A stretch of DNA of 47,900 bases from Alcaligenaceae bacterium (GTDB taxonomy: Bacteria > Pseudomonadota > Gammaproteobacteria > Burkholderiales > Burkholderiaceae_B), in contig JAJUGB010000003.1 in assembly GCA_029268595.1 (NCBI GenBank), positions 1 to 47,900 on the forward strand. Direction: 5' to 3'. Both the position numbers and the translations under genes were made by a program. The stretch's first letter is position 1, and every line of letters begins with the position of its first letter. Positions 4,841 to 47,483 of the stretch are shown piece by piece. The notes beneath the pieces were generated by a model. It was not told where the DNA came from. It was given only the letters and a program-made list of their open reading frames with translations, and searched no databases.

Positions 4841-5605
4841 CTAGCTGGACGGCATCTGGGCAGGTGGGGCTGCAGAGGCGGTTGAAGGGGCGGCCGCAGG
4901 CTCGGCTACAGGGGCGGCCGCAGGTGTGGCTGGCTCTAACACGCCGCTGTGCGTCTGGCTTGCCTCCTGCGTATAGGAGTGCTCTCGAAACAGGAATTCA
5001 GCGCGGTCTCCTTGACCGGCCTCAATAGCCTGGACAATGTGATGATGTTGCCGATGAGCGTAGAACAAAAAGTCGAACATCTTCTGCTTATTGGAACTGG
5101 AAAATGCCACGCTACCCGGAGCGGTAAACGGCACCACGTTGCAACGCTCGGTCAGGCTTTCCAGCAAGGGCATGTCCGCAGCCTCCAAAATTAAAGCGTG
5201 GAAGCGCTCGTTCATTCGTGCATACCGTGTTTCGTCCTCGTCATGCAACACGCGGTCGGCGAAGATGGCGTCGCCCTCTTCCAGGCACTGCTTCAAGGCC
5301 TTTATGAGGTCGGCAGATGCCCCCTTGGCCGCAACAACTCGGGCTGCATAACCCTCCAGCACCGAACGAAGCCGCAACGCCTCGATGCTGTGCTGTAAAG
5401 TGAATTCACGCACGGCGTAGCCGCGCTTGCCCGCGGCAACGAGCAGACCCTCTTCAGCCAGCGCCGGCAATGCTTGCCGTATGGGAGTACGCGAGACACC
5501 CAGGCGGGAGGCCAGCTCGGCCTCCGGCATACGCTGACCAGGTTGCAATTCTCCATGGAGAATCATTTCGCGCAAGCGAACAAGGACGGAAGACTGTTGC
5601 GACAT
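4841..5605 (-). CDS. GntR-family regulator, FCD subfamily
   Basis: A 254-residue protein from ATG 5605, which has GAGG eight bases upstream; the reading frame stays open further upstream, but no ribosome site supports an earlier start. Residues of about 1-70 form a GntR winged helix (AELASRLGVSRTPIRQALPALAEEGLL). The rest is an all-helical FCD effector domain with the expected polar residues ARMNERFHALI and HRQHHHIVQAIEAGQ, which in relatives bind a metal and a carboxylate ligand. The last 35 residues are an Ala/Pro-rich tail not typical of the family. The gene is divergent from the LigB/LigA operon, so it is most likely its repressor, with a ring-cleavage product or its substrate as effector. 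Ligand identity is not deducible. Confidence 0.9.
   Translation of the reverse strand: MSQQSSVLVRLREMILHGELQPGQRMPEAELASRLGVSRTPIRQALPALAEEGLLVAAGKRGYAVREFTLQHSIEALRLRSVLEGYAARVVAAKGASADLIKALKQCLEEGDAIFADRVLHDEDETRYARMNERFHALILEAADMPLLESLTERCNVVPFTAPGSVAFSSSNKQKMFDFLFYAHRQHHHIVQAIEAGQGDRAEFLFREHSYTQEASQTHSGVLEPATPAAAPVAEPAAAPSTASAAPPAQMPSS
4887..4924. repeat. Two-copy 14-bp repeat in the regulator's Pro/Ala tail
   Basis: GGGGCGGCCGCAGG occurs at 4887-4900 and 4911-4924, a 24-base (eight-codon) period. It encodes part of the low-complexity Ala/Pro tail of the GntR protein and looks like a local in-frame duplication. Confidence 0.6.
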
Positions 5606-5652
5606 ACTTAAAACCTCAGTGACCCTGTCCATGCTAGCAAATTTGAGGCGAG

Positions 5653-5665
5653 TTGGGATCCAAAA
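5653..5665. promoter_or_regulatory. Imperfect GntR operator copy
   Basis: TTGGGATCCAAAA resembles the perfect palindrome at 5716-5729. The two centres are 64 bases apart, close to six helical turns, so dimers bound at both could lie on the same DNA face. This copy is nearer the regulator's own start. Confidence 0.55.
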
Positions 5666-5715
5666 CAACGACTTCCACCACCACAAGACCGCTTCTTCCG
5701 CAGCTCCGCTTCACA

Positions 5716-5729
5716 TTTGGGATCCCAAA
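5716..5729. promoter_or_regulatory. Perfect 14-bp palindrome, candidate GntR operator
   Basis: TTTGGGATCCCAAA is a perfect inverted repeat 50 bases before the LigB-like start and 111 bases before the GntR start. FCD-type GntR proteins bind short palindromes of this size in divergent intergenic regions. The repeated core at 5653-5665 strengthens the call. Confidence 0.7.
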
Positions 5730-5779
5730 CGGTAGAATCGATGTGTCTTCTCTCAGGCATTCGCATATAGGAAACGATC

Positions 5780-6664
5780 ATGGCCAAAATTATTGGATGC
5801 ATAGGCACCTCGCATGTCCCGACTATTGGGGTGGCCTACGATAAGGGTCGACAAAACGATCCCGCGTGGGCCCCATTATTCGAGGGTTACAAACCCGTCG
5901 CAGCGTGGCTGGCCGAGAAAAAGCCCGATGTGTTGGTCTTCTTCTACAACGACCACGCCACGACATTTTTCTTTGATATGTATCCCACCTTTGCCTTGGG
6001 GGTCGGCAAAGAGTTTCCCATCGCCGACGAAGGCGCCGGCCTCCGCAATCTGCCCTCCATTAAAGGCAATGTCGACTTCCAGGCCCACATTGCCGAAAGC
6101 CTTGTCAACGATGAGTTTGATCTGACGATTTTTCAAGAAAAGCCCATTGATCATGGCTGCGCTTCGCCCTTACCTCTGCTGTGGCCCCACGATCCCGACT
6201 GGCCCGGCACGCTGGTGCCGATTGCTATTAACGTATTGCAGTTCCCCCTGCCCACTGCACGGCGTTGTTACAAGCTTGGGCAAGCAGTGCGGCGCGCCAT
6301 CGAATCGTATCCAGAAGACCTGAAAGTTGTAGTAGTTGGCACCGGAGGCTTATCTCACCAGATTCACGGCGAGCGGGCCGGCTTCAATAACGAAGAATGG
6401 GATCAAGAGTTCTTGCGCCTCCTGCAGTTCGAACCCCAAAAACTCACCGAAATGACCCACGCCGATTATGTGCGACTGGGCGGCGCCGAGAGCGCAGAGC
6501 AAATCATGTGGCTGGCCATGCGCGGCGCCATGCCCGAAAAAATCCGAAAGATCCATCAAAACTGCTATTTGGCCACCACCACTAATATGACGGTGGTTCT
6601 CTATGAAGAAGGCGAAGAACCGGCTCAGCAGGCATCTCTCGTAGCCGCACACGCCACTGCCTAA
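5780..6664 (+). CDS. ligB: Class III extradiol ring-cleavage dioxygenase, catalytic (LigB-type) subunit
   Basis: A 294-residue LigB-superfamily protein, close in length and layout to the beta subunit of protocatechuate 4,5-dioxygenase. Predicted iron ligands are His12 (TSHVP), His59 (YNDHA) and Glu240; the acid-base His is His193 in GTGGLSHQ. These align with His12, His61, Glu242 and His195 of LigB. The enzyme inserts O2 next to the hydroxyls of a catechol-type ring. The partner alpha subunit starts 12 bases downstream. Substrate is uncertain: protocatechuate, gallate and 3-O-methylgallate enzymes share these residues. GalBCD at 15792-18337, with no LigC or LigI seen, makes gallate (direct formation of oxalomesaconate) attractive. 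Confidence 0.9.
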   Translation: MAKIIGCIGTSHVPTIGVAYDKGRQNDPAWAPLFEGYKPVAAWLAEKKPDVLVFFYNDHATTFFFDMYPTFALGVGKEFPIADEGAGLRNLPSIKGNVDFQAHIAESLVNDEFDLTIFQEKPIDHGCASPLPLLWPHDPDWPGTLVPIAINVLQFPLPTARRCYKLGQAVRRAIESYPEDLKVVVVGTGGLSHQIHGERAGFNNEEWDQEFLRLLQFEPQKLTEMTHADYVRLGGAESAEQIMWLAMRGAMPEKIRKIHQNCYLATTTNMTVVLYEEGEEPAQQASLVAAHATA

Positions 6665-6676
6665 GGAAATCAACAT

Positions 6677-7036
6677 ATGAATCCACAATTAAAGGGCATT
6701 GAAGAACTCGAAGGCACTTATCCCTTCGATATCCGCACCAGCAATCGAACCCTTAAGCTGAATCGCTTTCTTTGGAACATGATCCGCGGGGAATGGCGTG
6801 AGCGTTACAAGGCAAACCCGGAAGCTCTTATGGAAGAAGCGCAGCTTACCGACGCCGAAAAAGAGCTCGTCCGCCGCGAAGACTGGCTCGGTTTAGTGAA
6901 ATACGGAGCCAACTTTTTTGTCTTGGAAAAATTCGCTCGCGTGGTCGGCAAAACCAACCTGGAGGTGTATGCCTTGATGCGTGGCGAAACGTTCGAAGAG
7001 TTTATGAAGACACGTCGCGTGCCCGAATCGCGCTAG
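6677..7036 (+). CDS. ligA: Extradiol dioxygenase small (LigA-type) subunit
   Basis: A 119-residue helical protein of the LigA family, starting 12 bases after the LigB-like stop. Conserved stretches include LNRFLWNMI, the DWLGLVKYGANFFVLEKFARVVG segment and the LYALMRG-like VYALMRG. In LigAB the small subunit closes over the active site of the large one and contributes to substrate binding. It has no catalytic residues of its own. Together with the preceding gene it makes the (alpha-beta)2 dioxygenase. In single-chain gallate dioxygenases this domain is fused to the C-terminus; here the two are separate, as in protocatechuate 4,5-dioxygenase. The 222 bases to the next gene hold only a weak symmetrical sequence at 7129-7145. 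Confidence 0.9.
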   Translation: MNPQLKGIEELEGTYPFDIRTSNRTLKLNRFLWNMIRGEWRERYKANPEALMEEAQLTDAEKELVRREDWLGLVKYGANFFVLEKFARVVGKTNLEVYALMRGETFEEFMKTRRVPESR

Positions 7037-7258
7037 TGCGCCTCTTTACTCAGGAGATGATCTCGGTCCGCACAGCTGCAGCATAGGGCCGTCAAAGCGG
7101 ACCAGTCGAAGCAAGGGCTACGCAACTATTGATGCGATCGATCAACAGCCCCGCAAAAACTTCATTTTTATTCATGAGCCTGGCCCACTACACTGGGACG
7201 ATAACAACACGGCCGGCCGTCGTGCGACGGCTTTCGCCCATTCCCAGGAGACAAGCCC

Positions 7259-8167
7259 ATGAATTCCCCAGAGGTACTCACCACAGCTCCGTCCACCGAC
7301 TCGCGCGAGTTCAGCATTACACAGGAAGCCATCGATCGCATGCAGCCCGTCGACGAGCGCACGGGGGTGGTCATCTCATCGCTCATTCGACATCTGCACG
7401 ATTTCATCCGCGACGTGCAGCTGACCGAAAAGGAATGGATGACGGCCATCCAGTTCCTCACGCGTGCCGGACAAATATGCACGGACAAACGCCAAGAGTT
7501 CATTCTTCTTTCCGACGTGCTGGGTGTCTCGATACTGGTCGACGCCATCAACAACCGTCTTCCCCCCCAAGCAACGCAGCAAACCGTGCTTGGCCCCTAC
7601 TATTGGGAAGGCGCCCCAGAACGCCCGATGGGCAGTGACCTGGCGGAAGGCATTATCGGCGAGCCCTGCTTTTATTCGGGCGTCGTTACTTCATTAGACG
7701 GAACACCCATCGAGGGCGCTTGCCTTGACGTCTGGTCGGGCGACGGTGAAGGCAACTACGACATGCAACTGGGCTCTACGGAAATGAAGGCGCGGGGCAA
7801 GTTTGTCACCGGTGCCGATGGGCGATACTGGTTCCGCTCTATCAAGCCCTTTTACTATCCCGTGCCCACCGATGGCCCTGTCGGGCAGCTGCTTACCGCC
7901 ATAGGTCGCCACCCGAACCGCCCGGGGCATATGCACTTCATTCTGTCCGCCGAAGGCCACAAGACCGTCGTCACCCATATATTCCCCTCCGACAGCCCCT
8001 ATCTAGATAGCGACACGGTCTTCGGTGTTAAAGATGGGCTTATTACAGAGTTCCTGCGCCATGAACCCGGTCAGGCTCCTACCGGGGAAACCGTCACCAC
8101 CCCGTTCTACACCTGCGAGTACAACTTCCGCCTGGCGCCTGTGTCCCTCGGTGCAACTCAGGCCTGA
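7259..8167 (+). CDS. Intradiol ring-cleavage dioxygenase (hydroxyquinol / catechol 1,2-dioxygenase type)
   Basis: A 302-residue non-haem Fe(III) dioxygenase. An N-terminal helical dimerisation domain (about 1-105) is followed by the beta-sandwich catalytic domain. Expected iron ligands are all visible: Tyr115 (GPYYW), Tyr200 (PFYYPVPTDGPVG), His224 and His226 (RPGHMHF). The PVPTDGPVG segment is more like hydroxyquinol 1,2-dioxygenases than simple catechol enzymes. The product would then be maleylacetate, but no maleylacetate reductase is in the window. The gene lies 222 bases after LigA and 26 bases before the citryl-CoA-lyase-like gene, so it is probably in the same operon. A resorcinol link with the decarboxylase at 1-379 is possible. 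Confidence 0.88.
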   Translation: MNSPEVLTTAPSTDSREFSITQEAIDRMQPVDERTGVVISSLIRHLHDFIRDVQLTEKEWMTAIQFLTRAGQICTDKRQEFILLSDVLGVSILVDAINNRLPPQATQQTVLGPYYWEGAPERPMGSDLAEGIIGEPCFYSGVVTSLDGTPIEGACLDVWSGDGEGNYDMQLGSTEMKARGKFVTGADGRYWFRSIKPFYYPVPTDGPVGQLLTAIGRHPNRPGHMHFILSAEGHKTVVTHIFPSDSPYLDSDTVFGVKDGLITEFLRHEPGQAPTGETVTTPFYTCEYNFRLAPVSLGATQA

Positions 8168-8193
8168 CCAGGCCGCCCAAACCGGATGAACTT

Positions 8194-8991
8194 ATGCAGA
8201 TAGGCAAGGAAACGACCCCACGTACCAGCATTTCAACCTCCAATGCCGACACCATCGTGGTGCGCGGCGAAGACTTGGCACAAGACCTTATCGGAAAAAT
8301 CGGCTTCACCGATTACTTCTACCTGCTGTTGACGGGAAGCCGGCCAAGCAACGCTGCCAGCGCGGTACTCAACGCCACCTTGGTGGCCATTGCCGAACAT
8401 GGCCTTGTGCCAAGCGTTCAAGCCAGCCGTATGACCTACGCCGCGGCGCCCGAGGCACTGCAAGGGGCAGTGGCGGCCGGCATTCTGGGGTGTGGCTCGG
8501 TCATACTGGGTGCCTCTGAGTCTTGCGGCGTCTTCCTCAACGCCATACGGCAACGCGCCCAAGGTCAAGATATAGAATCGGTTGCACGCGAGATCATCAC
8601 GCAGTATCGGTCCGAACGTCGCGCTATTCCCGGTTATGGGCACCCCTTGCATAAAGTACGCGACCCTCGCGTTTCTGCTCTATTCGATGTGGCCAGACAA
8701 GCGGGCGCCGACATGAGCTTTGTCAGCGTGGCCGAAACTGTCGAGTCGCTCTTGCCGGAACTCACGGGCAAGCCGCTAATGCTGAACGTGTCGGCGGCCA
8801 TACCCGCTGTCTTGCTGGGGGTGGGCTTCCCCCTCAGCGCGCTGAAGGGCGTACCCCTGTTGGCCCGCACGGCCGGGCTTATCGCACACCTTGCCGAAGA
8901 AACTCAAACACCCATTGGGTTCGCACTGTCGTACCAGGCCGCCCGTAACGCGGTGTACGAAGGCGAGACGCCCGCCGGTTTTGTGGAGTAG
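8194..8991 (+). CDS. Citryl-CoA lyase / citrate-synthase-like protein
   Basis: A 265-residue protein of the citrate-synthase fold, much shorter than citrate synthase (about 430) and close to the lyase domain of ATP-citrate lyase. The conserved GYGHPLHKVRDPR motif gives His150, equivalent to the second active-site His. The HGG motif that carries another catalytic His in synthases is replaced by ILGAS (104-108), as expected if the protein cleaves rather than condenses. It lies 2 bases before a CoA-transferase gene. Together they could activate and split a citrate-like acid into acetyl-CoA and a keto acid. The ring-cleavage product 4-carboxy-4-hydroxy-2-oxoadipate has a citrate-like carbon skeleton, making it a candidate; this is inference. 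Confidence 0.75.
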   Translation: MQIGKETTPRTSISTSNADTIVVRGEDLAQDLIGKIGFTDYFYLLLTGSRPSNAASAVLNATLVAIAEHGLVPSVQASRMTYAAAPEALQGAVAAGILGCGSVILGASESCGVFLNAIRQRAQGQDIESVAREIITQYRSERRAIPGYGHPLHKVRDPRVSALFDVARQAGADMSFVSVAETVESLLPELTGKPLMLNVSAAIPAVLLGVGFPLSALKGVPLLARTAGLIAHLAEETQTPIGFALSYQAARNAVYEGETPAGFVE

Positions 8992-8993
8992 CC

Positions 8994-10160
8994 ATGTCGA
9001 AGGTATTGAAAGGCATACGCGTACTTGAGCAGGGCACATTCATTACAGGCCCCGCCGCCAGCATGCTGCTCGGCGACTTGGGCGCAGACGTCATCAAAAT
9101 AGAGCAGCCCGAGACGGGCGATCCTTTTCGCGCGTTCAAAGGGGGCTTGTACAGCCCTCATTACCAAACCTATAACCGCAATAAACGTAGCGTCACCCTT
9201 AACACCAAAAACCCCGACGATCTTCAACTATTCGACGAGCTGGTGCGCGAAGCCGACGTATACATTCAAAACTTTCGCCCCGGCGCCGCTGAGCGGCTCA
9301 ATGCCGGTGAAGAACGGCTGCGCACATTGAACCCGCGGCTAATTTATTGCTCGATTAGCGGTTTCGGCCGGGACGGCCCAGCCGCCTCTCGGCCGGCTTA
9401 CGACTCCGTCGCACAGGCCGCAAGCGGCTTTCTCGGCTTACTGATCAACCCAGCCAATCCGCGTGTAGTTGGGCCCGCCATCGCCGACTCACTGACCGGC
9501 TTTTATGCCGCTTACGGCATTCTTGCCGCCTTACTCGAACGTCAGCATACCGGCGTGGGGCGCACGGTCGAAGTCTCCATGCTCGAGGCCATGACGCATT
9601 TCAATCTGGACGCGTTCACTCACTTTTATTCAGCCGGTGAAGTCATGGGGCCTTATAGTCGGCCCAGCGTATCGCAGTCATACGTCATGAAATGCGCGGA
9701 TGACAAATGGGTGGCTTTGCACATGTCGTCGCCAGAAAAGTTCTGGCAGGGGCTGGCTCAAGCTATCGAGCGTCCAGATATGTTTGACGACCCGCGCTTT
9801 GCCACGCGCGAGGCCCGCATCGAGAACCAGCCTGCTGTAATCGAATTCCTTCGACCAATCTTTGCAACGCGCTCCCGCGCCGATTGGTGCAAGCGCCTTC
9901 AGGCCCAAGATGTTCCCCACGCGCCCATGTACGACCCCAGTGAGGCCCTCGACGACCCGCAGGCCAAGCACCTGGAATTACTCGTATCAGCGGTCCATCC
10001 CACCATGGGAGAATTCCGCACGGTTCGCTCCCCCGTATCGTTCGACGGGCAGCGTAATAAAGAGATTGTGCCGCCCCCTGTGCTTGGCGAACACAACGCA
10101 GAAATTCTGGGTCCAATTCGTGAAAAGTTGAAGGCGGCTGCGGAAGACACGACGCCCTGA
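8994..10160 (+). CDS. Class III (CaiB/BaiF) CoA-transferase
   Basis: A 388-residue class III CoA-transferase. Family features are the N-terminal LKGIRVLEQGTFITGPAASMLLGDLGADVIKIEQPETGD, of which the Asp in LGADVIKIE is conserved, and the NRNKRSVTLN segment. The catalytic Asp of this family lies about residue 165-170; here the candidate is in GPAIADSLTGFYAAYGI. These enzymes move CoA between carboxylic acids, commonly from succinyl-CoA. The gene starts 2 bases after the citryl-CoA-lyase-like stop, so the two are translationally coupled and probably form one activation-cleavage step. Acceptor acid unknown. The operon appears to end here; no clear terminator is seen in 10161-10268. Confidence 0.88.
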   Translation: MSKVLKGIRVLEQGTFITGPAASMLLGDLGADVIKIEQPETGDPFRAFKGGLYSPHYQTYNRNKRSVTLNTKNPDDLQLFDELVREADVYIQNFRPGAAERLNAGEERLRTLNPRLIYCSISGFGRDGPAASRPAYDSVAQAASGFLGLLINPANPRVVGPAIADSLTGFYAAYGILAALLERQHTGVGRTVEVSMLEAMTHFNLDAFTHFYSAGEVMGPYSRPSVSQSYVMKCADDKWVALHMSSPEKFWQGLAQAIERPDMFDDPRFATREARIENQPAVIEFLRPIFATRSRADWCKRLQAQDVPHAPMYDPSEALDDPQAKHLELLVSAVHPTMGEFRTVRSPVSFDGQRNKEIVPPPVLGEHNAEILGPIREKLKAAAEDTTP

Positions 10161-10271
10161 CGCAGCTTCACGAGAATTCACCCTGCTCAAAGCGCTTACC
10201 CGCGGGCAAAGCCCGGTGGTATGCTTTGCGCGTCCTGTTTTTGTGTAGACGCCTAGCGCCGGCCAATCTTG

Positions 10272-10676
10272 ATGCAGCGCAAACTTGTTCTTGAATTCAT
10301 ATTGTTTGGCATCGCCGGAGGCATTGGCTTCGTCGTCGACGCGGCCGTGCTATATGGGCTTGCGCCGGCGTTCGGTCCCTTCACCGCCCGGATCGCTTCA
10401 TTCTTGGCCGCAGTGCTTGCCACCTGGCTGGTCAATCGATCGTTGGCCTTCCAGAGCAGGCGATCCGCGCTGAATCGCAAGACCGAGTTTGGCAGCTACC
10501 TGCTGTTGATGCTGGGCGGTGGGGCGGTCAACTACGCTGTCTACAGCGGGCTTGTCTTATATTCGCCCTTAGTGCGCGAACACCTGGTGTTGGGCGTGGC
10601 AGCCGGCAGCATTGCCGGCATGTTCATCAATTTTGCACTTGCCCGCTTCCTTCTTTTTCGCTTCCCGTCGGCTTGA
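10272..10676 (+). CDS. GtrA-family membrane protein (putative lipid-linked sugar flippase)
   Basis: A 134-residue protein with four predicted membrane helices, the standard GtrA size. The first helix is LVLEFILFGIAGGIGFVVDAAVLYGL and the last ends with FALARFLLFRFPS. GtrA proteins are proposed to flip undecaprenyl-phosphate-linked sugars. ATG at 10272 is chosen over the in-frame TTG at 10269; neither has a strong ribosome site. It overlaps the 3' end of the convergent glycosyltransferase gene by 50 bases. With the GT2 and GT-C proteins next door it makes a three-component Gtr glycosylation module, used in other bacteria to decorate O-antigen or other surface polymers. Confidence 0.85.
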   Translation: MQRKLVLEFILFGIAGGIGFVVDAAVLYGLAPAFGPFTARIASFLAAVLATWLVNRSLAFQSRRSALNRKTEFGSYLLLMLGGGAVNYAVYSGLVLYSPLVREHLVLGVAAGSIAGMFINFALARFLLFRFPSA

Positions 10677-13525: not shown

Positions 13526-14404
13526 GTGGAACTGCGGCACCTGAGATATTTCGTTGCGCTGGCCGAGCATTTGAACTTTACTCACGCCGCCGAGAAGGTG
13601 CATGTGACCCAATCGACGTTGTCGCACCAAATCCGACAGTTGGAAGACGAACTATCCTGCTCTCTCTTCGAGCGTCGGGGCAAACGGGTGGCCATGACCG
13701 AGAAGGGCGAGGAATTCCTTCAATACGCCCAGAAGGCATTGCGCGAAGTGGAACATGGGGTGAAAGCGGTACGCGCTCCCACTGCCCAACTGTCGGGTGT
13801 CCTGCGCATAGGCACCACGCATACCTTCAATATGCGCATCATCCCGCAGTGCATCGCCCAGTTTCATGAACGCCACCCATCGGTGTGCGTGCGCGTAGAG
13901 GAGATGCCCGGGCACGAAGTCGCTGACGCCTTGCTGAGCGGTGATCTGGACTTTGGCGTGGCCTACAAACCCGATAACGCCTCGCCTCTGATTTTTGAAC
14001 CGCTGTATAACGAAGAACTGGTACTAGTCGTGGGGCCGGAGCACTTGTTTGCGCGCAGACGCTTTGTCCATATGGCCGAACTGCATCAGTTGCCCCTGGT
14101 GCTGCTGTCTCCGCGCTATGCGACCCGCCAATTGTTGGACGATTGTTTCGAAATGGCCAACGCACGACCCATGGTGGTGACAGAAATGAACACCATTGCA
14201 CCAATGATCGAGCTGGTGCGCCGGGCAAATATCGCCGCCATTGTGTCCGAGCACGCCATCCCGCGCGATGCTGCATTGACGGTGCGGATACAAAGCCCCA
14301 CGCCGGTGCGCACGCCGGGCCTGATCTGGCGGCGTGGCGAACCGCGGGCCGCGGCCGCCCGCCATATGGCCGCCATCATTCGTGCGCTGGTCGCCTCGTC
14401 TTAA
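13526..14404 (+). CDS. LysR-family regulator (CynR/CbbR-like)
   Basis: A 292-residue LysR protein: winged helix at residues 1-60 (ELRHLRYFVALAEHLNFTHAAEKVHVTQSTLSHQIRQLEDEL) followed by a two-lobed substrate-binding domain starting VLRIGTTHTFN. Start is GTG 13526 with AGGAG five bases upstream, overlapping the region just after the GT-C stop (13524). Its 3' end overlaps by four bases the convergent DUF1932 dehydrogenase gene. LysR proteins usually control divergent genes, but here nothing divergent is adjacent, so its target is unclear; the galBCD-containing operon is the nearest catabolic candidate. Ligand unknown. Confidence 0.9.
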   Translation: MELRHLRYFVALAEHLNFTHAAEKVHVTQSTLSHQIRQLEDELSCSLFERRGKRVAMTEKGEEFLQYAQKALREVEHGVKAVRAPTAQLSGVLRIGTTHTFNMRIIPQCIAQFHERHPSVCVRVEEMPGHEVADALLSGDLDFGVAYKPDNASPLIFEPLYNEELVLVVGPEHLFARRRFVHMAELHQLPLVLLSPRYATRQLLDDCFEMANARPMVVTEMNTIAPMIELVRRANIAAIVSEHAIPRDAALTVRIQSPTPVRTPGLIWRRGEPRAAAARHMAAIIRALVASS

Positions 14405-15327
14405 GCTTTGCGCTCCTCGCCCTTGGACAGCCTGTCGACAAAGGAGGGCCAATCAAACTTCTGGTCCACTGGATAAGTGATGCCAAGGGCCTCCATGCGG
14501 TCCACAAGCGCATCCTGCGCTCGGGCAGTGGCTGACGCCATGATGGGATCGAGATGCACATCCTCTAACGTCTCAACCACTTCACGCATTTCTGCGGCCC
14601 GCCGACGCCCGTGCTCGGCCACACGGCTGATGAGGTAATGGGGAAGTTGTTCGGTCCAGCCCATGCTGGGAAACGTTTCAGCCAAGGACTCGAGTACCGC
14701 CTGCTCTGCGCCATAGCGCCGCGCCGCCGTCATGCATTCGACCGTCAAGGCTTCCAATCCTTTAATCATGACGCTACGGCACATTTTGATGGCCGATGCG
14801 ACGCCCACATTAGTGGCCACGGCCCGCGTCTGTAAGCCCAGACGATTCAGCGCCTGCGCCAACGGCTCTGCTTGAGGCCCGCCCAGGAGCATGGGCACCT
14901 TGATGCCGTACGGCGGCACGGGAGCCATGACGGCCGATTCCACATAGAACGCGCCAGATGCTTCCACTGCCGCCTGGTCGTGCCGTTTCGTGGCAGGCGA
15001 GACCGAGTTGATATCAAGAAAAAACTGCCCGGTGCCCAGGTACGCAGAGGCTTGCACGGCGGCTTCAGCGGCCGAACTGGCTGTCACCGCCGAAACAATG
15101 AGTTGGGCGCCTGCGATCGCCTCTTGCAAGGTGGCGTGTAGCGTCACTCCGCAATCGCGGGCGCGTTCTTGCATGCGGGCCGCTTGAGTTGATTCGTGGA
15201 TTTTTATGTCGTAGGCGCTAACACTCAGGCCCGCCTCTACAAAGCCTTTGGCCAGCAAGCTCCCTGCTTCGCCCAAGCCAATCAGTGCCGCCTGGGTCAA
15301 TAGCGGCACCTGCGTTGTTGCTTCCAT
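14401..15327 (-). CDS. NAD(P)-dependent beta-hydroxyacid-type dehydrogenase with DUF1932 domain
   Basis: A 308-residue protein. The N-terminus has a Rossmann motif AALIGLGEAGSLLAKGF, the middle SVSPATKRHDQAA resembles the substrate motif of 3-hydroxyisobutyrate dehydrogenases, and GVASAIKMCRSVMIKGLEAL carries the Lys expected for catalysis in that superfamily. The C-terminal half matches DUF1932 proteins. It is the last gene of the galB-galC-galD-SnoaL operon and starts immediately after the SnoaL stop. Homologous genes are known beside protocatechuate or gallate ring-fission genes, but the reaction has not been assigned with confidence; reduction or oxidation of a hydroxy/keto acid intermediate is my inference. 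Confidence 0.8.
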   Translation of the reverse strand: MEATTQVPLLTQAALIGLGEAGSLLAKGFVEAGLSVSAYDIKIHESTQAARMQERARDCGVTLHATLQEAIAGAQLIVSAVTASSAAEAAVQASAYLGTGQFFLDINSVSPATKRHDQAAVEASGAFYVESAVMAPVPPYGIKVPMLLGGPQAEPLAQALNRLGLQTRAVATNVGVASAIKMCRSVMIKGLEALTVECMTAARRYGAEQAVLESLAETFPSMGWTEQLPHYLISRVAEHGRRRAAEMREVVETLEDVHLDPIMASATARAQDALVDRMEALGITYPVDQKFDWPSFVDRLSKGEERKA

Positions 15328-15791: not shown

Positions 15792-16892
15792 TTAGTTGTT
15801 GGAACCTGGGCCCGCCCACACTGCTGCAGGGATGCAGACATGGCCGTCGAACAAACTGCGAGCTGTGCGGATGAGCGCGGCGCTTGTCACGGAGACCGTC
15901 CCGCCTTGGCGCTCAAGCTGCAGCTGAACGGACAGCTGGCCTGTGGGATGTTCGACGGCAAGGGCCGGTTGGTCGCCCGAGGGTAGCTGCGCAATACCGT
16001 CGCACACGGAGCCCGGCAAGGCTACCGCGGTAGCGACGCTGACAGCACCCAACACACCTATGGAGGCATGACAGCGATGAGGTATGAAGCTGCGAGTGTT
16101 TATCGCGCCGCCCCCGCCGGGAGGCGAAATCAAGCACATTTTGGGCACTGTGCGCTCGGTCACGTCGCCCAGGTTCATCATGGGACCCGCCTTCAGACGT
16201 ATGGCTTCCACCCGCAGTTTGAGTTCGCTGTTGCCGTCCAGCTGCTCGCGAGTCTCGTAACCCGTAATGCCCACATCTTCTGCGCGCAACAACACCAAGG
16301 GCATGCCATTATCGATGCATGTCACGGGTACGCCGTCAATGACGTCGCGCACATTGCCCGTAGGTAGCAAGGCGCCACAAGTGGAGCCCGCCGTATCTCG
16401 GAACTGTAAAGGGATGGCAGCCGCCGTACCCGGCACTCCGTCGATAGCTTGATCGCCTTCATATTGCACGTGCCCGCCTGGGGTCGGCACAGACGCCACA
16501 GCGATCTGGCCGGTATTGACCATATGGATAGCGACAGGCGTTACACCGTCGGCGGCCTTGACCAGACCTCGTTCTATGGCGAAGGGCCCGACACCTGCCA
16601 GCATATTGCCGCAGTTCTGGCCATAGTCAACTCGTGACTCGTTGATGAGTACCTGACCAAACAGGTAATCGACATCGGCATCTGGGCGAGTGGACGGCGA
16701 AACTATGGCAACCTTACTGGTCAAAGGGTCGGCTCCGCCTATACCGTCGATCTGACGGGTATCCGGTGAACCCATTACCGCCAGCAATACACGGTCGCGC
16801 AACTGAGGATCTGACGGCAAGTCGGAGGCCTGGAAGAACGGGCCCTTTGACGTGCCGCCCCGCATCAATACCGAAGGTATACGGGTTTGCAT
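15792..16892 (-). CDS. galD: 4-oxalomesaconate tautomerase (PrpF fold)
   Basis: A 366-residue PrpF-family isomerase. The N-terminal LMRGGTSKGPFF and the YGQNCGNMLAGVGPFA segment (with the active-site Cys) are characteristic, and GGGGAINTRSFIPHRCH is a typical C-terminal motif. In gallate degradation GalD converts the keto to the enol tautomer of 4-oxalomesaconate; LigU is a relative with a different isomerase role in the protocatechuate 4,5 pathway. The neighbours galC (9 bases upstream on this strand) and galB strongly favour the gallate-type function. ATG 16892 has GAGG six bases upstream. Confidence 0.88.
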   Translation of the reverse strand: MQTRIPSVLMRGGTSKGPFFQASDLPSDPQLRDRVLLAVMGSPDTRQIDGIGGADPLTSKVAIVSPSTRPDADVDYLFGQVLINESRVDYGQNCGNMLAGVGPFAIERGLVKAADGVTPVAIHMVNTGQIAVASVPTPGGHVQYEGDQAIDGVPGTAAAIPLQFRDTAGSTCGALLPTGNVRDVIDGVPVTCIDNGMPLVLLRAEDVGITGYETREQLDGNSELKLRVEAIRLKAGPMMNLGDVTERTVPKMCLISPPGGGGAINTRSFIPHRCHASIGVLGAVSVATAVALPGSVCDGIAQLPSGDQPALAVEHPTGQLSVQLQLERQGGTVSVTSAALIRTARSLFDGHVCIPAAVWAGPGSNN

Positions 16893-16901
16893 GGCAGACC
16901 T

Positions 16902-17597
16902 CTATAGTTCGTCCAAAGAGTCGACGTAACGCAAGCCCTTGGCCTGGAGCCGCTCGCGCATCTGATAGTAGTCAAGGCCCAGAGTGCCGTCTGCCAGTAC
17001 CTTGCGGGTGGCCAGCTCTTTGTCCACACGTGCTTGAGCCGCGGCGGCAACTTTGGCCGCCTGCAGGCGAGGCACCACAACTACGCCATCATCGTCCGCC
17101 ACGATGACATCGCCCGGATTTACCAATTGCTGAGCACAAACGAGCGGGATATTGACTGAGCCGAGGGTCTCTTTGACCGTGCCTTGCGCAGAAATTGCAC
17201 GTGACCATACTGGAAAACCCATTTCCTGCAGCACTTTGACGTCGCGGCATCCGGCATCAATAACAAGGCCTTTGACACCGCGCACCTGCAAGGATGTAGC
17301 AAGAAGTTCGCCAAAGTAGCCGTCCAGGCATTCTGACGTGGGGGCGACGACAAGAACGTCTCCTTCGCGGCACTGTTCTACCGCGACGTGCAGCATCCAA
17401 TTGTCCGAAGGCGGCACCAATACCGTTATGGCCGAGCCGGCAATGGCTGCACCCGGCCATATGGGACGCATATAGGGCGCCAACAAGCCGAGTCGGGCCT
17501 GGGCCTCGTGCACGGTGGCCGAGCCGGCCTTCTGCAAGACTTCAATGTCTGCCGCGTCGGCGCGCGGCACATTACGGACAACAACTCCACGTATCAT
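16902..17597 (-). CDS. galC: 4-carboxy-4-hydroxy-2-oxoadipate aldolase / oxaloacetate decarboxylase
   Basis: A 231-residue class II aldolase of the RraA-like HMG/CHA family. Start is ATG 17597, whose ATGA overlaps the galB stop; the frame is open farther upstream but that part reads as nonsense (Arg/Cys/His-rich). [17 protein letters not shown] and [20 protein letters not shown] hold the metal- and pyruvate-binding Asp and Arg of the family (CRD motif). It cleaves 4-carboxy-4-hydroxy-2-oxoadipate into pyruvate and oxaloacetate, finishing the meta-cleavage branch. The four-base overlap implies coupling to galB. Confidence 0.9.
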
Positions 17598-18337
17598 GCC
17601 AGGTCTCCTACGACGGCGGGTGTGAGACGCATATATCCTTCTGCATACTCGATATTGCGAGCGGCAGTGATACCGATGTTGCGCTTGGCCTGAACACCAC
17701 GCTGCTGGGCAACACGTGTGTAATAGGCCCAGAGGTGCTCTTGCCCCGCCATGCACTCGATGGCTTGGCGTTTAATGTCCCACACGTCGGTAATATCCAG
17801 GAAGGTGTTGGGCGTCCATTCACATTGCTCGGGCTGGTGAGGCTCGAAGGCGTACACCGGGGGCGCGCCTATGACCTTCTGCCCGGGATTATGGCCCTCG
17901 GCCTGCGCGATGATGCGTGTTTCTTGCGCTACATGCATGGCCAGCGGGTGATCGAAGTTATACGGATCTTTTGTGGAATGACTGAGCACGAACGACGGCT
18001 GCAAGTCGCGATATATGTCCACCAAGCGGTAAAACGCCTCGTCTGTCACGCGCAGTGGGTAATCACCCAGGTCGAAAAATTCTATTTCAGCACCAAGAAT
18101 ATCGGCGGCCTTTTGAGCCTCTTCACGACGCGCTTCTTTGACGCGATCCAAGGTCATGCCTTCCTTACGCCACAATTTGGCGGATTCGCCGCGCTCGCCG
18201 TAGGACAGGCAGACGATCTTCATGCGATAACCTTGACGTACGTGGCTGGCAATGGCGCCACCGGCGCGCCAGACAAAATCTGCCGAATGGGCGCTGACGA
18301 CCAAGCCGGTACCGGGACTGGCAGTACTTGCATTCAT
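17594..18337 (-). CDS. galB: 4-oxalomesaconate hydratase (PIG-L / LmbE fold)
   Basis: A 247-residue zinc protein of the PIG-L deacetylase fold. The usual AHPDDE metal motif appears as [12 protein letters not shown], keeping the His and Asp, and a second His-rich region [10 protein letters not shown] is present. GalB of pseudomonads is the founding hydratase of this fold and is unrelated to LigJ, the amidohydrolase-type hydratase of sphingomonads. It adds water to 4-oxalomesaconate to give 4-carboxy-4-hydroxy-2-oxoadipate. It is the first gene of the galB-galC-galD-SnoaL-DUF1932 operon. ATG 18337 has AAGGGAG seven bases upstream. Two inverted repeats lie between it and the double-HTH LysR gene. 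Confidence 0.88.
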
Positions 18338-18470: not shown

Positions 18471-19721
18471 TTATGCCAACGCGTCCGCCAACTTACGCAC
18501 TTCCTCCACAAAAGTCATCATGGATGCCCCCAGATGACTGTCGCGTCTGGTCGTCAAACCAATGACGCGCGCAGTATCGTTAACCGGCACGGGAAGCACG
18601 GTAAGCAGACCGGCCGACATCCCCCGCATGATCTGGCGACGTGACAACAAAGCCAGTCTGTCACTATCCAATAGCAGGGCCTGTAGCACCATGGCGCTGT
18701 TCACTTCCAATGAAGCCTGAGGTGGCGATATGCCTTCCGCCTTGAAGGCGCGCTCGAACGCTTCTCTTGCCGGGGTTCCGGGTAATGGAGCGATCCAGGA
18801 TTCGGTCACCAGCTGGCGCAGGTCCTTGATTGGAGCATCAAGCAAAGGGTGCCCATGGCGCGCAACCACCGACAGAGTGTCCTCGAAAAGCGCCTCTTGC
18901 TTTAACTCGGGCGATGGCAGTTTGGGCCGCAATGCGCCCACGATGATATCGACCTCGGCGTGAAGCAGCTGATGAACCAAGGCGTCGTAAGTGCCGTCCA
19001 CAATGGTGACGCTCAACTCTTTATGAGCGCTAAGCACCTTATCGACTGCGCGCGGAACCAGCATCCCGGCGGAAAGCGGTAAGGAACCCACCACGATGCG
19101 GCCTTGAACCTGTCCTCGGTAAGCGGCGAGATCTTCTTGGGCAAGGCGAAACTCGTCGAGCGCCAGTTTTGCCCGGCGTAATACGGCCTCCCCACTGTCG
19201 GTAAGCCGCGCGCCTCCGCCAGAGCGATGAAACAGTTTCGCCCCCAGCATATGTTCTAGCTGGCGTAAGGTCTGGTTGACGGCGGGTTGGCTAATACCCA
19301 GTCGGGCTGCGGCTTGTGTTTCGCCCCGAGTTTCACAAAAGACGATATAGGTCTGCAGATGACGAAAGCCGCAAGTGACGGCAAATCGACCGCCGGTGTT
19401 CTTCAGGCCCGCCGAACCGGCCGCCTGGGCGCGAGCCTCCTGTTGCGCCAAATCCAGTTGGTCGAAGGCGCGCTGCGTGCGTCGGATCAACAGCTCGCCT
19501 TCGGCTGTTGCCAGCATTCCTCGGCCAGTTCGATCGAAAAACTGCACCCCCAAGCCGTCTTCCAGATCGCGAATTGCGCGGGCAATTGCAGACTGCGAAA
19601 GCGGCAGCAATGTCGCTGCCCGGGCCGTGCTGCCGGTTTGGAAAACGGCCAACGCGGCACGAAATTGGCGCAAGCGGGGCGCAAATGGAAAGGCAACGGA
19701 TGTGGAAGCCTGAGTTGACAT
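18471..19721 (-). CDS. LysR-type regulator with two N-terminal DNA-binding domains
   Basis: A 416-residue protein, about 110 longer than a usual LysR regulator. Two LysR winged helices occur in tandem: residues about 18-75 (AARAATLLPLSQSAIARAI-type, with FFDRTGRGM) and about 118-178 (QAAARLGISQPAVNQTL, with LFHRSGGGARLT). A normal effector-binding domain starts at VQGRIVVGSLPLSAG. ATG 19721 is preferred: AGG lies upstream, and the 23 residues before it read as non-protein. It stands directly upstream of galBCD in the same direction, so control of that operon is likely, as GalR does in pseudomonads. Both helices look intact. It could bind unusually spaced sites or act as a pre-dimerised reader. 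Confidence 0.88.
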   Translation of the reverse strand: MSTQASTSVAFPFAPRLRQFRAALAVFQTGSTARAATLLPLSQSAIARAIRDLEDGLGVQFFDRTGRGMLATAEGELLIRRTQRAFDQLDLAQQEARAQAAGSAGLKNTGGRFAVTCGFRHLQTYIVFCETRGETQAAARLGISQPAVNQTLRQLEHMLGAKLFHRSGGGARLTDSGEAVLRRAKLALDEFRLAQEDLAAYRGQVQGRIVVGSLPLSAGMLVPRAVDKVLSAHKELSVTIVDGTYDALVHQLLHAEVDIIVGALRPKLPSPELKQEALFEDTLSVVARHGHPLLDAPIKDLRQLVTESWIAPLPGTPAREAFERAFKAEGISPPQASLEVNSAMVLQALLLDSDRLALLSRRQIMRGMSAGLLTVLPVPVNDTARVIGLTTRRDSHLGASMMTFVEEVRKLADALA

Positions 19722-19777
19722 AGGAGAACCTGGGTGGGCAGTCGAACAACCGTCCTGCAGTGCTCCAAGAATAACCG

Positions 19778-19800
19778 GGGCCGGTCGCAAGGACCGGCCC
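19778..19800 (-). terminator. Hairpin after the BKACE gene
   Basis: GGGCCGGTC (19778-19786) and GACCGGCCC (19792-19800) pair perfectly around GCAAG, 23 bases past the BKACE stop. On the minus strand it is followed by GGTTATTCTT, only mildly T-rich. It probably separates BKACE transcription from the LysR gene. Confidence 0.55.
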
Positions 19801-19823: not shown

Positions 19824-20732
19824 TCAGGCCGCTTTGACGGCCTTACGGCGCGGCAGGCCCATGATTTGGCGCGCCTCTTCAGGTGTAGCCGGCTCGTAGC
19901 CCATTTCCCGAACCAGACGCACCATGCGCTCGACCAGCTCGACGTTGGTAGCCAGGCGCCCTTGCTCGTAATACAAGTTGTCTTCCAGGCCTACCCGCAC
20001 ATGACCGCCCAGCAGCAGCGCCTGCATGCTTGCGGGCAGCTGTGCGGCGCCGACCGCGCTGACGTTGAATATGGCGCCCTTGGGCAGGTGATCGACCATG
20101 GTTTGCAGGATTTTCGGCGTATAAGGCAAAGCGCCCTGGAAGGCGTAGACGCCCAGCACAATATTGACAAAGAAGGGCTCTTCGTCCAGCCCGGCATCAA
20201 TCATCTTGGGCACATCGGTGACCAGATCGGACAGACTGAAGACTTCCCATTCGGGCTTGATGCCCCGGGCTTTCATCTTTTCAGCCAATTCGCGGATACG
20301 TTTTGGGGTGGTCGGAACGAGAATCTCTTTGTCGCCAAACGAACAACAAATGGTCTGGGCATCCAGCGTGCACATTTCGACGCCCTCGCCCTCCATGCCC
20401 TTAAGGCGCTCTTCGAACTTGATTTCCCACAAGCCGTTGTTAAGCTCGTGGATCATGTCTCCGTGCACGCCGCCACCCGTCGAGTTATTGAGGATGATGT
20501 CGCACTTGTCACGAATGAGCCGGTTAATGCGGGTGTACACGCCGGCATCGCAGGTGGCAAGGTGATCGCTGTCACGCCGCGCGTGCACAGCCACCACGCT
20601 GGCGCCGGCGTTATAACAATCGTAGACGTCGGCCGCGATTTCCTCGGGGGTAACCGGCAAATGGGGGCTTTGCTTCTTAGTGGCTACCCCTCCAGTGGGT
20701 GCCACGGTGACGATGACCTTTGGTTTGCTCAT
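19824..20732 (-). CDS. BKACE-family (DUF849) beta-keto acid cleavage enzyme
   Basis: A 302-residue TIM-barrel protein of the beta-keto acid cleavage family. The start [11 protein letters not shown], the metal-site region [10 protein letters not shown], the LNNSTGGG segment and the C-terminal [10 protein letters not shown] motif are characteristic. Family members use Zn and acetyl-CoA to split a beta-keto acid into acetoacetate and a CoA ester. Substrates vary widely and are set by a few pocket residues, so no substrate is assigned. ATG 20732 has AGGAGG close upstream. A hairpin follows its stop, and it may be its own transcription unit. Confidence 0.88.
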
Positions 20733-22245: not shown

Positions 22246-23307
22246 TCAGGACTCCACCACCACAGAGGCGTCGCCGGGGTTGAACTGCCCCACGACGGCC
22301 GCTTGGGAAAAGCCCTGAGACCTGAAGGTGCTTAGTACTTCTTCCACTGCCTCGGGTTCACAAGCCACCAACAACCCACCCGACGTTTGCGGATCGGTCA
22401 GCAAACCGCGCATTGCATCGTCAAGCCGGGACGGCAAATGAATGGACGCCCCATAGGACTGCCAGTTTCGACCGGACGCGCCTGTGATGACGCCCTGCCG
22501 GGCCAACTCGTGGACACCCGGCAGCCACGGGATATCGCTGACCCGCAAATGCGCGGCCAGATCAGAGGCACGCGCCATTTCAAGCGTGTGCCCCAACAAG
22601 CCGAAACCTGTGACATCGGTTATGGCATGGACACCCGGCAAGCGCGCCAGCTGCGCGCCGGGCCTATTCAACTTGGTCGTGGCGTTGATCATGGCCTGGT
22701 AACCAGCCTGGTCGAGGATGTCTTTCTTAAGCGCGGCCGAAAGCACGCCCACCCCTAGAGGCTTGCCCAGTATCAGCACATCGCCGGCTTTGGCGTCGGC
22801 GTTGCGTTTGATGTGGGAAGGATGAGCAAGCCCCATCACGGCCAGACCGTATATGGGCTCTACCGAATCAATGGAATGCCCGCCGGCGACGGGGATGCCG
22901 GCATCCGCGCACACAGCGGCCCCGCCTTCAAGAATACGGGCGATGTCGGCGTGGGCCATAACGTTGATGGGCATACCGACAATTGCCAGGGCCATGATGG
23001 GCGTTCCGCCCATGGCGTACACATCCGATAAGGCGTTTGTGGCGGCAATACGGCCGAAATCGTACGGGTCGTCAACAATCGGCATGAAGAAGTCAGTGGT
23101 CGCAATAAGCGCCTGCTCTTCATTTAGCTTATAGACTGCGGCGTCGTCCGAGGTTTCGGTGCCCACCAGCAACTGTGAATATGCGGCTGCAGACGGCATT
23201 GTGGACATGAGTTCGGCCAGCACGCCCGGCGCTATCTTGCAGCCACACCCGCCCCCATGTGAAAGAGAAGTAAGGCGCGGCGGCGTGGCGGTCAGCGATT
23301 CGGACAT
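22246..23307 (-). CDS. selD: Selenophosphate synthase (selenide, water dikinase)
   Basis: A 353-residue SelD. The N-terminal SHGGGCGCKIAPG motif holds the catalytic Cys21 and Lys24, equal to Cys17 and Lys20 of E. coli; the reactive residue is Cys and not selenocysteine. ATTDFFMPIVDDPYDFGRIAATNALSD-type ATP/metal segments follow. It makes selenophosphate from selenide and ATP, the donor for both selenocysteine (SelA) and 2-selenouridine in tRNA (MnmH), and both users are encoded in this window. A strong terminator separates it from selC upstream, so it probably has its own promoter. GGAG lies eight bases before ATG 23307. Confidence 0.96.
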   Translation of the reverse strand: MSESLTATPPRLTSLSHGGGCGCKIAPGVLAELMSTMPSAAAYSQLLVGTETSDDAAVYKLNEEQALIATTDFFMPIVDDPYDFGRIAATNALSDVYAMGGTPIMALAIVGMPINVMAHADIARILEGGAAVCADAGIPVAGGHSIDSVEPIYGLAVMGLAHPSHIKRNADAKAGDVLILGKPLGVGVLSAALKKDILDQAGYQAMINATTKLNRPGAQLARLPGVHAITDVTGFGLLGHTLEMARASDLAAHLRVSDIPWLPGVHELARQGVITGASGRNWQSYGASIHLPSRLDDAMRGLLTDPQTSGGLLVACEPEAVEEVLSTFRSQGFSQAAVVGQFNPGDASVVVES

Positions 23308-23329
23308 GGGGCGATCTCCGTAGAAGCAA

Positions 23330-23361
23330 AATACAGCCGCCCAAGCAGGGGCGGCTGTATT
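23330..23361 (-). terminator. Strong intrinsic terminator between selC and selD
   Basis: AATACAGCCGCCC (23330-23342) and GGGCGGCTGTATT (23349-23361) form a perfect 13-base stem with a six-base loop. On the minus strand it is followed by TTGCTTCT after the TATT of the stem, giving a short T-rich tail. It lies 20 bases after the tRNA-Sec 3' end. Confidence 0.8.
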
Positions 23362-23381
23362 AGATGTAGCGGAAAGAGATA

Positions 23382-23477
23382 TGGCGGAAAGCAGCAGGAG
23401 TCGAACCTACCTGGGAGCGTCTGACGCCCCCAACCGGGTTTGAAGCCCGGCCGTGCCACCGGACACGCATGCCTTCC
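23382..23477 (-). tRNA. selC: tRNA-Sec (UCA anticodon)
   Basis: The minus strand gives a 96-base tRNA-Sec with encoded CCA. It has an eight-base-pair acceptor stem (5' GGAAGGCA with 3' TGCTTTCC), discriminator G, an anticodon loop CTTCAAA with UCA, a long extra arm (GGGGGCGTCAGACGCTCCC region) and the T-loop GGTTCGACTCC. The body closely follows E. coli selC. Only 11 bases separate its 5' end from the selB stop, so it is probably processed from the selAB transcript. It delivers selenocysteine to the UGA of fdoG. Confidence 0.96.
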
Positions 23478-23488
23478 ATGGTCGTGGC

Positions 23489-26844: not shown

Positions 26845-26847
26845 AGA

Positions 26848-27783: not shown

Positions 27784-27867
27784 GGGTCGCCTCCAGAAAT
27801 TAAACGGGCGCCTGCCGCGCACGCGACAGGACACCCGGGATACCAACTGCCTGAGCGGGCAAGCTTT

Positions 27868-28515
27868 CTACTTGTCTGCCGCAGGCCTGCGCAGCTGACG
27901 CCACCATAGCCGGTGGTGCTTATACGCCCAGCCCGGTGTGACCGTGCCGCGCGTCATGGCTTGCATTGAACCCTTTACCCAGTACGCCGAGTAGATGTGG
28001 ATAATGATGGCGCAAATAATGACAAAAGCAAAGAAGGCATGAAATACCGCCGCCGCCCGCACCACGGGAATGGGGACCAGCGTATAGGCAAACCACGGCC
28101 GCCACATGAGTATGCCAGTGACGATCAGCACCAACATGCTTATGACCAACACAAAGTACAACAACTTTTGGCCGCCGTTGTACTTGCCCACCTCTGGCAC
28201 ACGGTCTTCACGATGATTGACGACATCACCCACCCGCTTTAGCCACTCGATGTCGTGCTTTTGTATGGAGTTGTGCTTGAACATCCGCACAGCCAATACA
28301 AGAAACAGGAGGAACATGAAGAGGCCAAACCATGGATGCAGGATGCGCGTCCATTGGCCGCCGCCAAATAAGGCGGACAGCCAATACATCAGAGGATGGA
28401 ACAGGGCCAAGCCGGACAAGCCCGCCAGGAAAAAGGCACCAGCCACGATCCAGTGGTTGGCTCGTTCACCCCGGCTATAGCGAACGATCAGATCGGATCT
28501 TTTGACGTCACTCAT
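27868..28515 (-). CDS. fdoI: Formate dehydrogenase cytochrome b556 (gamma) subunit
   Basis: A 215-residue membrane protein with four helices. Haem-ligand His residues fit [12 protein letters not shown] in helix 1, HPWFG in helix 2 and [21 protein letters not shown] in helix 4. It anchors the periplasmic alpha-beta catalytic dimer to the inner membrane and passes electrons to quinone. Its start overlaps the end of fdoH by eight bases. The C-terminus is basic and cytoplasmic. Confidence 0.94.
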
Positions 28516-29407: not shown

Positions 29408-29418
29408 GGCTAACCCCC

Positions 29419-32789: not shown

Positions 32790-33796
<1,007 letters not shown>

Positions 33797-33896
33797 TTCA
33801 AGGCAATTACCCCAATATTGATCGGCTGGCGGTTCGCCCGCTAAGACAGGGCAAGCAGCCGGTCCCGAATCACATGGCATCATCCAGGAGTCAGGC

Positions 33897-47377: not shown

Positions 47378-47483
47378 ACGTCTGTCCTTGACCGGGCCGA
47401 ATCGAGTTTCTGCCGGCATCGAGTGGAAAGGAATACAGCGTGAAACAGCGGCCCGGATGGTGCCTTTGCAGTCCGGCCAATAA

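Follow-up and report, generated by a model that had tools for sequence, protein, structure and literature searches.

Two adjoining gene modules in an Alcaligenaceae bacterium, and a conserved pairing of a citrate-synthase-fold protein with a class III CoA-transferase often found near ring-cleavage genes

The window analyzed here is a 47,900-nucleotide stretch of contig JAJUGB010000003.1 (assembly GCA_029268595.1) from an Alcaligenaceae bacterium. It carries a row of five genes for a LigB- and a LigA-type dioxygenase subunit, an intradiol dioxygenase, a protein resembling citryl-coenzyme A (CoA) lyase, and a class III CoA-transferase. Open reading frames and family matches confirmed that all five run in one direction (+) behind a GntR regulator, itself divergent (-), as the initial annotation had described, and the coordinates bear out the coupling of the last two genes, 2 bases apart. 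The features of the locus are given below, each with the module to which we assign it (L, G, and C numbers denote loci, genomes, and contigs throughout).

4841..5686, - strand: GntR/FCD regulator, divergent from ligBA (PF00392 and PF07729); module 1
5780..6664, + strand: LigB-type catalytic subunit, gallate-dioxygenase-like (PF02900); module 1
6677..7036, + strand: LigA-type small subunit (PF07746; PRK13379 199.9 bits, cut-off 141); module 1
7037..7258: 222-base spacer separating modules 1 and 2
7259..8167, + strand: hydroxyquinol-type intradiol dioxygenase (PF04444 and PF00775); module 2
8194..8991, + strand: "citryl-CoA lyase-like" protein with a citrate-synthase fold, lacking the catalytic Asp (PRK06224.1-5); module 2
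8994..10160, + strand: class III (CaiB/BaiF) CoA-transferase (PF02515, E 3.3e-107); module 2
13526..14404, + strand: LysR regulator, homologous to LysR proteins near the lyase elsewhere; probably module 2
14401..15327, - strand: DUF1932 NAD-binding dehydrogenase (PF09130), found with GalBCD in L132 and L133; module 1
15792..16892, - strand: 4-oxalomesaconate tautomerase GalD (NF033377 556.7 bits, cut-off 440); module 1
16902..17597, - strand: 4-carboxy-4-hydroxy-2-oxoadipate aldolase GalC/LigK (TIGR02798 356.2 bits, cut-off 304.5; PRK09262 381.2, cut-off 179); module 1
17594..18337, - strand: PIG-L family protein, GalB-like hydratase (PF02585), with an 87-88% homologue beside GalC in L132 and L133; module 1
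18471..19790, - strand: LysR with two N-terminal helix-turn-helix copies, PcaQ-like (PF00126 twice, PF03466); module 1 by position
19824..20732, - strand: BKACE beta-keto acid cleavage enzyme (PF05853), adjoining the gal genes

The spacing of the row suggests two putative transcription units, with 222 bases between the LigA and intradiol genes compared with 26 and 2 bases inside the intradiol-lyase-transferase set; LigB and LigA are 12 bases apart. No sigma-70-like promoter match was found in the gap itself (7037-7258) by the promoter scan, and the combined promoter and terminator scan of 5500-10400 returned 1 promoter-like and 6 terminator-like sites, which was no excess over shuffles.

On its family assignments, module 1 (GntR, LigB-LigA, DUF1932, GalD, GalC, and GalB-like) appears to encode all of a gallate 4,5-cleavage route, with the classical GalC/LigK aldolase as its last step. 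LigB scored 561.2 bits against NCBIfam PRK13365 and 445.5 bits against gallate dioxygenase PRK13367 (cut-off 412), and its closest solved structure was gallate dioxygenase 3wku (E 1.2e-99). Its residues H12, H59, and E240, which we take to be the iron ligands, were present and conserved in 7 distinct sequences. The genes for GalD, GalC/LigK, and the GalB-like PIG-L protein (15792-18337, -), located 5.6-8.2 kb past the CoA-transferase gene, had been overlooked in the first reading of the window. The PIG-L protein occupies the position expected for GalB, a name that is our assumption, as no NCBIfam 4-oxalomesaconate hydratase (GalB/LigJ) model matched it above cut-off. GntR proteins with 70-78% identity lie near ligBA in L131, L132, and L133, and a 66% homologue of the LysR at 18471-19790, which matched the PcaQ model only below its cut-off, adjoins GalBCD in L133.

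The two modules proved separable in relatives. In 61 genomes searched (the own genome and 60 relatives), the lyase was matched in 15 (E <= 1e-40) and LigB in 8 (E <= 1e-80), the own genome being included in both counts. G016 and G034, from two related genera, carry LigB (88%), LigA, GntR, DUF1932, GalD, GalC, and GalB-like homologues within 20 kb; a lyase match at E <= 1e-40 was absent from the whole genome, and within those 20 kb, the only stretch searched for the two, neither an intradiol nor a transferase gene was matched. In G018, of a third genus, a single 3.19-Mb contig has GntR-LigB-LigA at 0.90 Mb and module 2 at 2.78 Mb, where LysR, transporter genes, CoA-transferase, lyase, and an intradiol gene are found together. 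Lyase and transferase (70-80%) are present in G017 and G015, with no LigB match at E <= 1e-80. What lies between LigA and DUF1932 differs: G034 encodes an aminotransferase-like protein and a formaldehyde dehydrogenase (TIGR02819, above cut-off) there, and the window encodes, besides module 2 and LysR, a GtrA-like protein, a glycosyltransferase, and a membrane protein that matches PMT weakly. This LysR (13526-14404) probably belongs to module 2, because it is 62-67% identical to LysR proteins near the lyase at L004, L084, L085, and L112; identity is 49-53% at several more loci. With LigBA and GalBCD occurring without a lyase match in G016 and G034, and LigBA and module 2 lying far apart in G018, the single hybrid pathway first proposed for this DNA is not supported, and the stretch looks like a junction of two catabolic modules.

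The protein encoded at 8194-8991 scored 332.6 bits against the NCBIfam "citryl-CoA lyase" model PRK06224.1-5 (cut-off 193). Its AlphaFold2 model (mean predicted local distance difference test score [pLDDT] 80.2) best matched citryl-CoA lyase 6hxp (Z 23.6, root mean square deviation 3.4, 247 residues), followed by ATP-citrate lyase modules and then citrate synthases. In HMMER alignments, Ser200 aligned with the NVD-motif Asp shared by 6hxp and bacterial ATP-citrate lyase (6nzy, 6qcl, and 6hxn), an Asp that we take to be the citrate-synthase catalytic residue; citrate synthase 2c6x has Glu at the aligned position. Across 104 matches with at least 48% identity (some loci counted twice, and the window included), 48 have Ser and 56 have Asn at this position; the 11 more distant matches (<48%) have Thr (10) or Ala (1), and neither set has Asp or Glu. 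His150, Arg159, Arg225, and His69 were retained in 115/115 matches. Because these His and Arg positions are kept while the Asp is absent in every match, ordinary citryl-CoA lyase activity is unlikely. The citryl-CoA-lyase-like identity first assigned stands as regards fold and family model; on the residues, with Ser or Asn for Asp in all 104 close matches, the protein probably differs from ordinary citryl-CoA lyases. Its catalysis may use another acid, release a more stabilized carbanion, or follow different chemistry. Two other positions were considered as signals: loss of a carboxylate-binding Arg at 241 was dropped, since the aligned 6hxp also lacks Arg there, and a His-to-Ile/Val change at 104 is weak, since ATP-citrate lyase has Phe at that position.

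To place the lyase in its genomic company, a contig scan with the lyase as query retained 80 loci of the 125 relatives found. Contig, plasmid, and further genome loci together gave 126 with a lyase at >=48% identity, of which 81 were long enough and centred and 41 remained after dereplication (80% lyase identity). Control regions (n = 40) were hand-picked at round coordinates in nine lyase-carrying genomes. The lyase-transferase pair is strongly conserved: a CoA-transferase lay near the lyase at 38/41 dereplicated loci versus 2/40 control regions, and within 2.5 kb of it at 37/41. In the best 20 of 126 plasmid records with a transferase match, nine of which are Burkholderia glumae, this match was always within 3 kb of the lyase match. 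The lyase itself is uncommon, being found in at least 12 of 398 genomes from across the phylum (E <= 1e-62) and at least 5 of 399 within the order (E <= 1e-85), the own genome included in each; both frequencies are lower bounds, with at most six candidates scored per genome. One in-frame stop was reported inside the lyase match at each of L096, L141, and L142.

Ring-cleavage genes often, though not always, accompany the pair. Any of three dioxygenase-type genes (intradiol, LigB, or VOC) was present at 31/41 loci versus 2/40 controls, or 29/39 versus 2/40 with the query sources L005 and L087 removed, although the VOC enrichment is partly by construction, the counted loci having supplied the VOC queries, and not every VOC protein is a dioxygenase. 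An intradiol or LigB-type gene lay within ~10 kb at 11/41 loci versus 2/40 (p 0.013), and at 10/40 versus 2/40 (p 0.025) without the query source L087. For loci with a lyase at >=60%, an intradiol gene was within 3 kb in 4/9 dereplicated and 15/24 undereplicated cases. Counted singly over the 41 loci, we found window-type intradiol genes at 7, LigB-type at 4, VOC at 21, WrbA quinone reductase at 16, PcaD-like hydrolase at 14, MetE-like at 13, LeuC at 3, and LeuD at 3, whereas the 40 controls had intradiol at 2, LeuC at 2, LeuD at 1, and LigB, VOC, WrbA, PcaD-like, and MetE-like at 0. The remaining counts, loci versus controls, were Fe-alcohol dehydrogenase 3 versus 0, flavin hydroxylase 2 versus 1, and Rieske 1 versus 0. 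These enrichments are partly by construction, because query sources lie among the counted loci or their near relatives: VOC (L048 and L005); WrbA, PcaD-like, and one MetE (L048); the other MetE (L089); one LigB (L087); Fe-alcohol dehydrogenase (L114); Rieske (L112); and one intradiol, LeuC, LeuD, and hydroxylase (L085). The CoA-transferase query, one intradiol query, and one LigB query were derived from the window. Co-occurrence of the five genes in other genomes was found in part, in that the lyase-transferase pair is linked to ring-cleavage genes elsewhere; a window-type LigB (46%) occurred near the lyase in 1/41 dereplicated loci, the alphaproteobacterial L072.

The most constant part of these loci is a CoA-activating enzyme together with the lyase-like protein, and what surrounds them varies. 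A Burkholderia glumae plasmid has the order intradiol, lyase, flavin hydroxylase, transferase, LeuC, LeuD, and a TIM-barrel protein. Plasmids of Sinorhizobium and Aminobacter have genes for lyase, transferase, a LigB-type protein, and a small protein in succession, and a Martelella plasmid carries the last two of these nearby on the opposite strand. Cupriavidus necator pBB2 has the lyase followed by an AMP-binding ligase and an intradiol-type dioxygenase; Bosea has the lyase followed by a ligase with a transporter, and no dioxygenase is annotated nearby. Paraburkholderia shows LysR, lyase, transferase, and a major facilitator superfamily (MFS) transporter. At L112, we take the Rieske protein to be VanA-like, no matching NCBIfam model being above cut-off. 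In sphingomonads the pair is divergent, with an IclR regulator, TonB receptor, WrbA, VOC, PcaD-like hydrolase, and MetE-like proteins as neighbours. As separate observations, WrbA, single-domain VOC, PcaD-like hydrolase, and MetE-like proteins recur around the pair (L048, L154, L005, and others), mainly in sphingomonads, in what looks like an unnamed aromatic pathway, and at L100, L101, L103, L108, and L212 distant lyase-like proteins (35-51%) adjoin an AMP-binding CoA ligase in place of the transferase.

The closest solved relatives of the window's intradiol enzyme are 6-chlorohydroxyquinol and hydroxyquinol 1,2-dioxygenase. Its Y167, Y200, H224, and H226, presumably the iron ligands, were present and were invariant in 20 distinct sequences. 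A tree of 23 intradiol sequences (eight rows having first been dropped, seven that duplicated retained loci and L090 for its divergence; it carries a long-branch warning) grouped the window copy with L112 and L085 (100/99), a wider group adding eight further near-lyase copies (97/94). The own genome has a second intradiol gene on contig C53, 48% identical to the window copy and directly followed by an Fe-alcohol dehydrogenase, as well as two adjacent PF00775 genes on contig C24. The C53 genes look like an ordinary hydroxyquinol pair, the dehydrogenase being presumably a maleylacetate reductase (no matching NCBIfam model was above cut-off), and the window copy is probably a paralogue with its own role. 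In the CoA-transferase, D165, which we assume to be the probable nucleophile, was invariant in 97 distinct sequences, and the best models and solved relatives were formyl/oxalate and succinate-glutarate type CoA-transferases, with model scores below the family cut-offs.

From gene content, fold, and conservation, we propose, with about even confidence, that module 2 is a separate unit providing a CoA-dependent exit from the product of hydroxyquinol-type ring cleavage through CoA transfer and C-C cleavage. With both modules presumably active, the intradiol dioxygenase would open a hydroxyquinol-type ring, and the acid product would perhaps be hydrated or hydrolysed by an enzyme encoded elsewhere. 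The class III CoA-transferase would then load CoA onto the acid, with succinyl-CoA as a possible donor, and the citrate-synthase-fold enzyme would break a C-C bond, yielding a small oxo acid together with an acyl-CoA, probably acetyl-CoA. Maleylacetate-malate and methoxyhydroquinone routes were considered as sources of the exact substrate, and no decisive evidence was obtained for either; among the matches listed from the literature on methoxyhydroquinone and related terms, nothing tied methoxyhydroquinone to these genes. LeuC/LeuD as the missing hydratase was attractive in L085, L090, L036, L055, L147, and L154. The own genome has, unlinked to the window genes and not used as evidence, a second LeuC/LeuD pair on contig C36 (L210) besides a leuC-leuD-leuB-like set on C78.

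Several observations weigh against this proposal. Loss of the Asp speaks against simple acetyl-CoA release. The window intradiol type alone was not significantly enriched near the lyase (7/41 versus 2/40, p 0.15), and with LigB counted only if window-like (L072), intradiol or LigB fell to 8/41 (p 0.09). On the intradiol tree, the label "near the lyase" needs 3 changes, and 80/500 shuffles were as low, so the clustering is not significant. LeuC/LeuD was not above background either (4/41 versus 2/40, p 0.68). As regards the two modules, G018 has no GalBCD in the 20 kb around its LigBA, and the lig-type cluster beside the pair at L072 may leave room for a link between them. Finally, 10/41 loci had none of the three tested dioxygenase types within ~10 kb, three of them also being without the transferase, and the pair may therefore serve acids that do not derive from rings.

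This last point leads to a somewhat unlikely alternative, in which the pair is a plain system for activating and cleaving some transported di- or tricarboxylate, for instance malate, citramalate, or a related acid, and the dioxygenase is a mere neighbour in some lineages. Loci such as L004, L025, L084, L114-L116, and L118 would fit it, as the pair stands there without the tested dioxygenase types and often beside a transporter gene, and so would the below-cut-off kinship of the transferase to the formyl/oxalate and succinate-glutarate enzymes. However, scattered lineages link the pair to three ring-cleavage/VOC gene types, a quinone reductase, and a PcaD-like hydrolase, and the lost catalytic Asp also argues against such a system. 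We consider it unlikely that the lyase-like protein does not cleave a C-C bond at all and catalyzes another step on the CoA ester, such as its hydrolysis, isomerisation, or decarboxylation. The Ser, Asn, Thr, or Ala at the Asp position throughout the close and distant matches would suit such an enzyme, as would the Protein Data Bank titles of two Asp-to-Ala ATP-citrate lyases, 7rig (D1026A) and 6znw (D541A), which name substrate or citryl-CoA complexes; we presume that the altered residue is the one matching Ser200. Against this stand the four invariant His and Arg positions and the retention of the whole fold.

Replacement of GalC/LigK, as the initial annotation had it, with the transferase activating 4-carboxy-4-hydroxy-2-oxoadipate from LigAB and the lyase splitting it to acetyl-CoA, is very improbable. 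Same-strand gene order in the window, the succession of lyase, transferase, LigB-type gene, and small protein on the two Rhizobiales plasmids and at L150, and, as the main observation in its favour, L072, where LigB, LigA-like, DUF1932, GalC, and GalD homologues adjoin the pair, are outweighed because GalC, GalD, and the GalB-like protein are in the window itself and LigBA with GalBCD lack a lyase match in G016 and G034; L072, moreover, has GalC and GalD homologues of its own, identity between the rhizobial and window LigB is only 29%, and the lyase is without its catalytic Asp.

A CoA-dependent exit for module 2 would tentatively, and with clearly less confidence than we place in the local proposal, be one case of a widespread, undescribed type of ring-cleavage exit. 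In it, acids would be CoA-activated by a class III transferase or an AMP-binding ligase and split by an Asp-less citrate-synthase-fold enzyme, in a reaction unknown for this fold. In the titles and abstract openings of the matches listed from the literature on citryl-CoA lyase, protocatechuate, hydroxyquinol, 4-carboxy-4-hydroxy-2-oxoadipate, and CoA transferase, a lyase-transferase ring-cleavage module was not described. The "citryl-CoA lyase" label given by the annotation model and in public records is probably wrong for the whole subfamily, and for many of its members the data point to a part in aromatic catabolism. The CoA route, if correct, adds a ring-cleavage exit beside the thiolase, aldolase, and hydrolase routes as well as a new use of the citrate-synthase fold.

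Elsewhere in the window, with names given by eye, SelD, SelB-like, SelA-like, FdhE-like, and formate dehydrogenase subunits lie in a row at 22246-31884 (-), where the start of the formate dehydrogenase large subunit may lie upstream via a selenocysteine codon. A RidA-like protein and an ACMSD-type amidohydrolase at 32517-34904 (+) suggest an aminomuconate or aminophenol-type route. At 45453-47419 (-), an alpha/beta hydrolase and a 2,5-dihydroxypyridine dioxygenase-like protein are found near a branched-chain-type ABC transporter.

Set against known systems, the lyase of itaconate degradation is of the CitE/HpcH type; such lyases were considered in the own genome and set aside, as HpcH_HpaI was matched on other contigs only (3 matches, 2 above cut-off). 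The likeness is in the order of reactions, the excerpt of PMC12290011 giving a CoA-transferase, itaconyl-CoA hydratase, and citramalyl-CoA lyase, that is, CoA transfer and then a lyase acting on the CoA ester of a branched acid. Module 1 shares with the gallate set (galA/galB/galC/galD, LigAB/LigK) the gallate-type LigB-LigA, the tautomerase, the PIG-L protein, and the GalC/LigK aldolase. It differs in that its dioxygenase is encoded by two genes and not as one fused chain (PRK13367 matches both pieces), in the added GntR and DUF1932 members, and in the insertion of module 2 between its halves. From the hydroxyquinol 1,2-dioxygenase and maleylacetate reductase system, module 2 has an intradiol enzyme nearest to the (chloro)hydroxyquinol 1,2-dioxygenase structures, whereas its genes include no Fe-alcohol dehydrogenase, the closest homologue in the own genome (51%) being on contig C53. 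Compared with the Hydrogenobacter thermophilus citryl-CoA lyase (6hxp) and the ATP-citrate lyase module, the window family has the same fold, length, and active-site His and Arg positions, but with Ser or Asn for the catalytic Asp; its partner is a class III CoA-transferase or, in some relatives, an AMP-binding ligase, and ring-cleavage genes are often nearby.

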